A stretch of DNA of 64,000 nt from NCBI GenBank assembly GCA_903843305.1, contig CAIMPI010000030.1, positions 1 through 64,000 of the forward strand, given 5' to 3'. The notes beneath the pieces are model-generated. The model saw nothing but the letters and a program-made list of their open reading frames with translations. It was not told the origin of the DNA and made no database searches. This DNA is from an uncultured Chlorobiaceae bacterium (GTDB taxonomy: Bacteria > Bacteroidota > Chlorobiia > Chlorobiales > Chlorobiaceae). How positions within the stretch are numbered: position 1 is the first letter of the stretch; every line of letters begins with the position of its first letter. Below are positions 45,562 to 47,721 of the stretch, one piece after another. A program made the translations under genes and the position numbers.

Positions 45562-47721
45562 ATGGAAAAAATTATAGAAGTTCTTATTAAAGTAATTGTT
45601 GATAATTTCGGTATAACAATAAGTGGTATCTCTACGTTATTAGCAGCTTCTGGAGTATATCTTTTTAATGTTTTATATAGGTGGCATCAGAATTCTTGTG
45701 TTGCAAAAGATTTAGTGGAATACCAGTTTAATTATCAGAATGTGAAGTCAAAAAGAGATTTTTTTATTGATACTCAAGCACAAAACATTACGCCTTCTGT
45801 TGAAGATGAAGCGGAAACTGGTGCTGCCTTTATTGTCAAGAAAAAATTGATTCCTTTCTTTATAAATACGGCATTCAAGAAAAAAGAAAAAAATAAATTT
45901 TATCTTGTGCTTGCTGATTCTGGTATGGGAAAGACTACTTTTATGATAAATCTTTATCTACGGTATAGTTCTTTTTTTAGATTTGGTAAAAAATATAAAA
46001 TAAAGCTATTGCCTTTTGGTTACAAAGGTATCATCGAAAAAATTGAAGAGATCAAAAAAAATGAGGATGTTACTCAAACAATTCTTTTATTAGATGCTTT
46101 TGATGAGTACAAAAAATTATTGCCAATAGAAGAGCTTGATGAATTATCGGATGAAGATCGATTCAGGAAAGTACTGGATGAGGTAATTGAAACAGTGCAG
46201 GATTTTCGTGAAGTCGTCATTACCAGTCGTACACAATATTTTCCTGGCCAAGAGGATAAACCTTATAAATTGCAAATTTCACGTTATGACGATGAAGGAT
46301 TTCATACTCTTGTAAAACTTTACCTTTCGCCTTTTGATGACAAGGAAATTCGATGCTATCTGAATAAAAAATTCGGTGTTTTGCGGTTCTGGAATCGCGG
46401 AAAAAAACAAAAAGCGCGACGAATTGTTAGCAACTCTCCAAAACTTATGGTTCGTCCCATGTTACTCAGTTATATTGATTATCTGGTTGACGGTAATCAA
46501 CACTATTCAACTACTTATGAGATTTACGAAGCGCTCATAAAAAAATGGATTGAACGTGAAGGCGATAAGCGTGAACATCTATATCTTAACCGTGAAAAAC
46601 TTAAAAAGAATCTTCATAAATATTCGCAACTGGTGGCAGTGAAAATTTATGAAAAACGAAAGGAGGCCAATTCTTTGCAATTGTCCAAAGCTGATGCTAC
46701 TGATGTCAACGTGGAACTCGAGGATTATCAGATGACCGGTCAGTCACTTCTTACCCGTGATGCAGAAAATAATTGGAAGTTTGCCCATAAATCAATCCTT
46801 GAATTTTTTCTGGCAAAAGAAGCTTCCGAGAAGATTGATTTTGCTATGACATTTGATTTTTCAGGTATGGACATGGTATTACAGTTTTGTATCGAAAACA
46901 AGACGGTTCTTTATCCTGATTTTGTTTGTGTTAACGGTGGATTGTTTTTAATGGGAAGTCCGGATAAGGAACCGGAAAGAGAACAAATTGAAACACAACA
47001 TCCCGTAAAAATTTCTAATTTTTATTTGTGTAAATATGTAGTTACCGTCGCTCAGTTTAAAGAATTTATTGAAGCATCAGCTTATCAGACTGATGCAGAA
47101 AAAGCGAATAGCAGCATTATTTTAGATGGTAACGAATGGAAAGAGAAGGCGGGCATAAACTGGCGGCATGGGGCATTGGGTAATGAGTGGAAAGCATTCG
47201 AGTACAATCATCCCGTGCTGCATGTCAGTTGGAATGATGCTGTTACTTATTGCAAATGGATATCGAAAAAGAGCGGCAAATTATTCCGTTTGCCAACGGA
47301 AGCAGAATGGGAATATGCCTGTCGGGCAGGAGCAGCCACACCGTTTACTACCGGTGATAATCTGACAACTGAACAGGCAAATTATGACGGAAACTATTCG
47401 TATAACAAGAACAATAAGGGAATATACCGAAAAAACACTGTTGCTGTTGACAGCTTTCAACCGAATGCTTTTGGATTGTATAATATGCACGGCAATGTGT
47501 GGGAGTGGTGCAGTGATTGGTATGGTGATAACTACTATATGGAATGCAATGCAAAAGGCACAGTTGAAAATCCTCGTGGACCGGAAACTGGTTCACACCG
47601 AGTGCTTCGTGGTGGGTGCTGGCGTGGGGATGCGGGAGCCTGTCGTTCAGCTAACCGCAACTGCTATCCTCCTGGTGGTCGCCGCAGCGGCGTAGGCTTT
47701 CGCCTGGTTTTTGTCCCTTAG
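45562..47721 (+). CDS. Membrane NACHT-like ATPase fused to FGE-sulfatase fold; probable DGR target
   Basis: 719 residues. An N-terminal hydrophobic segment (about 12-38) suggests membrane anchoring. A STAND/NACHT-type ATPase follows: Walker A [12 protein letters not shown] (118-128), Walker B [12 protein letters not shown] (174-184) with the DAFDE form, and a helical part to about 445. From about 452 to the end is a formylglycine-generating-enzyme fold ([49 protein letters not shown]). The last codons look diversified (see variable region). Such fusions are suspected sensors in conflict or immunity systems. The gene is AT-rich except for its 3' end. No partner gene is visible. Confidence 0.85.
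   Translation: [719 protein letters not shown]
47608..47703 (+). other. Putative DGR variable region (VR) at the 3' end of the NACHT-FGE gene
   Basis: The codons 47608-47694 (87 nt) are about 67% GC with 10 adenines, against an AT-rich remainder of the gene. They encode [20 protein letters not shown] and then [12 protein letters not shown]. Positions usually Asn (AAC/AAT) in DGR templates are here CGT, GAT, GCC, TGC, TAT, GGT, CGC, AGC and GGC, all ending in C or T as expected if only the adenines were replaced. The invariant frame RGG.W...R.SANRN...GFRLV is the usual FGE/C-lectin VR frame. Template and reverse transcriptase are not in the window. Confidence 0.6.

Follow-up and report, generated by a model that had tools for sequence, protein, structure and literature searches.

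Studies of diversity-generating retroelements (DGRs) centre on the diversity that these elements produce, and the fate of the useful variants is a further question. In this setting the FGE folds of the DGR type serve as ligand-binding domains. The closest described systems are cellular DGRs, such as DGR 6 of Thiohalocapsa PB-PSB1 and others, whose targets combine a STAND NTPase with a C-terminal FGE fold and which act in trans as well; the same account names Chlorobi as one of the host groups and describes, for Thiohalocapsa, loci that have degenerated and one target that does not vary (PMC10907252). Similarly, the remote variable proteins of cyanobacteria are targets dispersed away from the reverse transcriptase (RT), called at a variable repeat (VR) identity of at least 50%, and it has been suggested that, if the DGR shifted between genes, those that had been favourably diversified could become conserved (PMC7517822). 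The gene considered here shares both the architecture and the distance from an RT, and it is probably a retired target of a Chlorobiaceae FGE-type DGR, silently diverged and with its recognition sequence frozen. It lies in a stretch of 64,000 nucleotides (hereafter the window; contig CAIMPI010000030.1, or C30, of assembly GCA_903843305.1) from an uncultured member of the Chlorobiaceae, whose genome is a 2.59-Mb draft in 55 contigs with a completeness of 99.94%.

The reading frame of the gene is intact over all of its codons (Table 1). In a profile search with the protein, Pfam FGE-sulfatase (PF03781) takes up residues 452-716 with an E value of 4.4e-66 (223.6 bits against a gathering score of 23.3), and the solved relatives that phmmer finds for this C-terminal part are FGE enzymes (1.4e-38) and Treponema denticola variable protein 1 (TvpA, PDB 2y3c; 3.8e-20), which shares the FGE fold and is an actual DGR variable protein. 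The nSTAND3 family matches residues 102-233 with an E value of 2.4e-5 and 24.5 bits, below the gathering cut-off of 27.2; a Walker A and a Walker B motif are both there. Read from its sequence, the protein is most likely a STAND-type NTPase that is tethered to the membrane and ends in an FGE-fold sensor, the class to which the first-pass annotation had assigned it, and the assignment holds, with a predicted NTPase, an FGE fold and homologues that are real DGR targets. Sensing would be triggered by a ligand and is presumably still functional, while a specific ligand, an output signal and a part in defence against phages may be expected by analogy with its class (PMC10907252). The window protein has no PADLOC match, and an AlphaFold model built from an input of three sequences was unusable (mean pLDDT 32).

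Table 1. Features of the window gene and its 3' flank (positions in the window)
Feature	Position	Strand	Basis
719-aa gene: N-terminal hydrophobic segment, STAND-type P-loop NTPase, C-terminal FGE-fold domain	45562..47721	+	open frame; Pfam
Likely membrane-spanning segment	45613..45681	+	read from sequence
Walker A, ADSGMGKTT	45913..45939	+	sequence; invariant in two nearest homologues
Walker B	46078..46110	+	sequence; invariant in two nearest homologues
FGE-fold domain (C-lectin-like ligand domain)	46915..47709	+	Pfam PF03781; phmmer
Probable former variable repeat (VR), 117 nt up to stop codon	47605..47721	+	codon-position mismatch pattern against template repeat
3' flank, site of TCAGTTGGCTGCTCATTCCGGCTTTGCTTTTGAG in genuine targets; element missing	47722..47781	+	relic test; genome-wide pattern search

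The first-pass annotation had also placed the responsible element elsewhere in the genome, and contig C33 indeed holds an RT, an HRDC accessory and an FGE-type template repeat (TR). The order there is a 992-aa NACHT-FGE gene, a protein with a RecQ-C/HRDC-like domain, a 353-aa RT and the non-coding TR. The NACHT-FGE gene on C33 differs from this TR by 17 mismatches, and a 1051-aa NACHT-FGE gene on contig C9 by 22, every one of them at a template A and none at another base; because both genes mismatch the TR at template A only, the C33 DGR is active in cis and in trans. The C9 target (L010 11092-14247, minus strand) adjoins prophage genes for a portal, a terminase, a major head protein and an endolysin, and may be a prophage-borne diversified sensor that the DGR of the host rewrites. 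An FGE gene on C49 (L015, C49:9320-9856) is a broken target: the VR flank is intact, 21 mismatches are non-A and the Trp codon of the VR reads TAG. Further, an FGE fragment on C9 (L016, C9:91727-92098) has a nearly unmutated, Asn-rich tail and is followed by a flank, CCGGCTTTACTCTTGAG, complementary to a TR type of G062, CTCAAGAGTAAAGCCGG, which is not found in this genome. The genome contains two RVT_1 matches only, both on C33, in agreement with the earlier statement that the window itself holds neither an RT nor a TR. A second DGR on that contig (L009 7775-11292) is unrelated: its template is of the Lcl/C-lectin type and in another frame, its target has pentapeptide repeats, and its RT has no bearing on the window VR; more C-lectin ORFs lie at L009 12507-13004 and L010 5300-6655.

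The 3' end of the window gene carries the composition expected from the earlier description of an A-poor, GC-rich end in an AT-rich gene. Positions 47608-47694 reach 66.7% GC with 10 A among their 87 nt; the opening 1.4 kb of the gene stands at 33.5% GC and the FGE part just upstream of 47608 at about 42%. No 87-nt stretch in the gene falls below 9 A, and the ten A-poorest stretches listed all start at 47598-47632, with the GC-richest starting at 47605-47621. The invariant protein frame of the VR (RGG-W...), which had been recognised as an FGE/C-lectin VR frame, is exactly that of the C33 TR. At the 12 AAY codons of this TR the window gene reads CGT, GGG, GAT, GCC, AAC, AAC, TGC, TAT, GGT, CGC, AGC and GGC; the claim that such codons keep their last base stands for the 11 that end in a pyrimidine, but had passed over the exception, GGG, and the two that stay Asn.

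Whether the gene is a target today is a separate matter, and here the window VR departs from the live ones. Over 117 nt it has 45 mismatches to the C33 TR, the only one of FGE type in the genome, 23 at A and 22 at non-A positions, 21 of the latter at third codon positions, against no non-A mismatch in the C33 and C9 targets; the 34-nt VR 3' flank occurs in exactly three copies in a genome-wide pattern search, after the C9, C33 and C49 genes, and is absent after the window gene, where a relic test found no significant trace of it either (p 0.14). The search that the first-pass annotation had proposed therefore succeeded in part, since an RT and an FGE-type TR were found but the mismatches to the TR are not confined to adenines, an outcome that the annotation itself had named as refuting, and the notion of this DGR acting on the gene at present is not upheld. 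That the C33 DGR still diversifies the window gene in trans is scarcely credible: the element does act in trans, as its C9 target attests with 22 mismatches at A and 0 at other bases, and the VR has the protein frame of the TR, but several of the non-A mismatches fall within the final 30 nt, from which homing starts, and the flank is missing. The gene is off the current target list of this DGR.

It might instead be a live target of some other DGR, whose TR diverged alongside the VR and was lost from the assembly or resides in other strains. The draft is in 55 contigs, the VR frame is intact and its codon pattern is compatible with an AAY-rich TR, so that such a situation can be imagined. Nonetheless it is decidedly improbable, given an assembly of the stated completeness with both of its RTs on C33 and given that an intact VR flank is lacking at the gene. 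A TR-compatible pattern, in which each position is the VR base or A with up to 3 mismatches over 75 nt, matches the VR alone in its own genome and no TR in 86 Chlorobiaceae genomes. The 24 TRs of the family, moreover, differ pairwise at no more than 14 third positions, against 18-22 third-position differences between the window VR and every one of them. Viral contigs gave no match for the exact conserved VR 3' end, and blastn against the compared loci found no remnant of an RT or a TR within 480 nt upstream or 580 nt downstream of the gene.

The evidence for a past as a target resides in how the differences are distributed among codon positions. At codon positions 1 and 2, the window VR differs from the C33 TR at 22 of 29 template-A sites and at 1 of 47 others (p ~4e-12), and at third positions it differs at 21 of 37; against the consensus of the 24 family TRs, the corresponding figures are 21 of 28, 0 of 48 and 19 of 38. 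In 28 TR-VR pairs, by comparison, a live VR departs from its own TR at 0-2 non-A sites. Silent third-position differences between the VRs of active Chlorobium homologues are mostly 0-0.27, while the rest of the FGE part reaches 0.45-0.59 in distant pairs, and this uniformity of live VRs is accounted for by rewriting from related TRs. The window VR stands at 0.50-0.67 against its homologues, like the rest of the window gene. Likewise, GC at four-fold sites is 0.44 in the window VR, the lowest value in the set, compared with 0.67-0.95 in TR-matching VRs and 0.30 in the body of the window gene.

The relatives of the gene point in the same direction. Eight of its 12 closest homologues adjoin a DGR cassette (in G062, where the RT is a remnant, and in G083, G052, G068, G064, G078, G005 and G018), and in G005 and G018, which represent another genus, the homologue likewise stands beside an accessory/RT/TR cassette. 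These cassette-linked homologues share 59-70% identity with the window gene, in a comparison that comprises one genome per species and has no homologue above 70%. In the tree the window gene belongs to a supported group (96/94) with the cassette homologues from G062, G083, G052, G064, G078, G005 and G018, a group whose inner branching order is not resolved. The window gene is thus nested among homologues that are live targets, and its nonsilent differences from the TR consensus are limited to template-A sites.

The main rival to retirement is that the gene was never a DGR target and that its FGE tail varies naturally at the surface positions which DGRs use elsewhere. FGE-fold tails from other phyla form a control set that was not screened for DGRs and may include some of their targets. 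At codon positions 1 and 2 these tails depart from the C33 TR at a fraction of 0.59 for A sites and 0.16 for the others, a weaker but similar contrast, and they vary mostly at the same positions. The adenine contrast therefore partly reflects which FGE positions vary, the pattern alone is no proof of a DGR history, and it was dropped as sole proof. The lack of a flank relic and the drift of third positions in the VR towards the composition of the gene also agree with a gene that was never rewritten. This reading is nonetheless unlikely: cassette targets occur among the homologues on several sides of the window gene in the tree, including those of G005 and G018, the combination of no nonsilent non-A difference at 48 sites with 21 at 28 A sites lies at the lowest extreme among the controls, and the tail is much poorer in A than the remainder of the gene.

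Retirement, the favoured account, would have proceeded as follows. As in its homologues, where the gene stands beside an HRDC accessory, an RT and a TR and the last ~117 nt are overwritten by adenine-mutagenised cDNA from the TR, the window copy would once have been a target. At its own, different site, next to a radical-SAM MoaA-like gene and with no adjoining TR or RT, the downstream signal would have been lost, and silent changes would since have accumulated in the VR at the rate of the rest of the gene. The recognition sequence from the last retrohoming would be inherited and no longer altered by the element, leaving the tip of the sensor fixed since the loss of template match and downstream signal, apparently long ago. 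No argument is built on the location of the gene, because in G035, which has the closest counterpart of the moaA-like gene (86% DNA identity), that counterpart is not followed by a gene of the window type.

A further survey of 51 FGE 3' ends of Chlorobiaceae suggests that this history may not be singular. The ends range from live, with 0-1 non-A mismatches to their own TR and an intact flank, to strongly diverged, and 15 of the 51 have 10-23 non-A mismatches to the best TR, the flank being damaged or missing in most of these. Across species, five groups of diverged tails recur in which 0-4 residues differ out of 17 variable ones, along with as many as 14 silent changes, as exemplified by SFNAGRCRSAYRGHSVPGLRYCS in G052, G054, G056 and G074. 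Frozen VR tails whose recognition sequence is shared between Chlorobium species are seen at L192, L205, L208, L212, L215, L220, L191, L200, L203, L210, L189, L195 and L201. At some frozen tails (L189, L203, L179, L195 and L210) a significant relic of the VR flank is present, which supports a DGR origin. Because diverged tails recur across species, some with flank relics, retirement with a retained recognition sequence is plausible as a general process. The stronger proposition, that DGR-made recognition sequences are repeatedly frozen and inherited as fixed specificities, with exit by losing the downstream signal and selection keeping the residues to which hypermutation had led, is a tentative one, with the chances somewhat against it; the window gene would then be one case and the five shared-tail groups others. 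If true, a frozen specificity would correspond, in bacteria, to an affinity-matured receptor that has entered the germ line. Cross-species frozen tails would offer a way to ask which ligands it paid to keep, in other words what STAND-FGE sensors recognise.

The downstream signal itself shows a symmetry with the template. In 28 of 28 matched TR-VR pairs the TR flank (TAG-CTCAAAAGCAAAGTCGGATGACTGCC, e.g., L008 on C33) is the reverse complement of the VR flank, TCAGTTGGCTGCTCATTCCGACTTTGCTTTTGAG, in a comparison that took the first 40 nt past the stop codon at L002, L005, L021, L032, L034 and others. The two main Chlorobium flank types covary, CTCAAAGTAAAG with CTTTACTTTGAG, and the complementarity is weaker in G005 and G018. 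We know of no description of reverse complementarity between TR and VR flanks. In homing, the complementary flanks might serve as an RNA-DNA guide or as a protein site common to both. The VR flank was also considered as a hairpin, and it folds no better than its shuffles.

Set against known systems, the window gene and its relatives are familiar in some respects and distinct in others. The architecture of TvpA differs from that of the window protein, with which it has the FGE fold in common. The hairpin/cruciform of BPP-1 is likewise a required cis element just 3' of the VR stop codon (PMC3240598); the Chlorobium element, by contrast, is no better than shuffles as a hairpin and equals the reverse complement of the TR downstream flank. 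Unlike the targets described in PMC10907252, the window VR has silently diverged from every template and has lost its downstream signal, and the nSTAND3 match is weak. One genome offers live (C33, C9), broken (C49) and probably retired (window) targets of a single template family, in which silent third-position changes provide a clock for when rewriting ended. In comparison with the cyanobacterial remote targets (PMC7517822), finally, non-A mismatches, third positions and the flank here separate live from retired targets, a simple rule for remote targets that identity thresholds do not supply.
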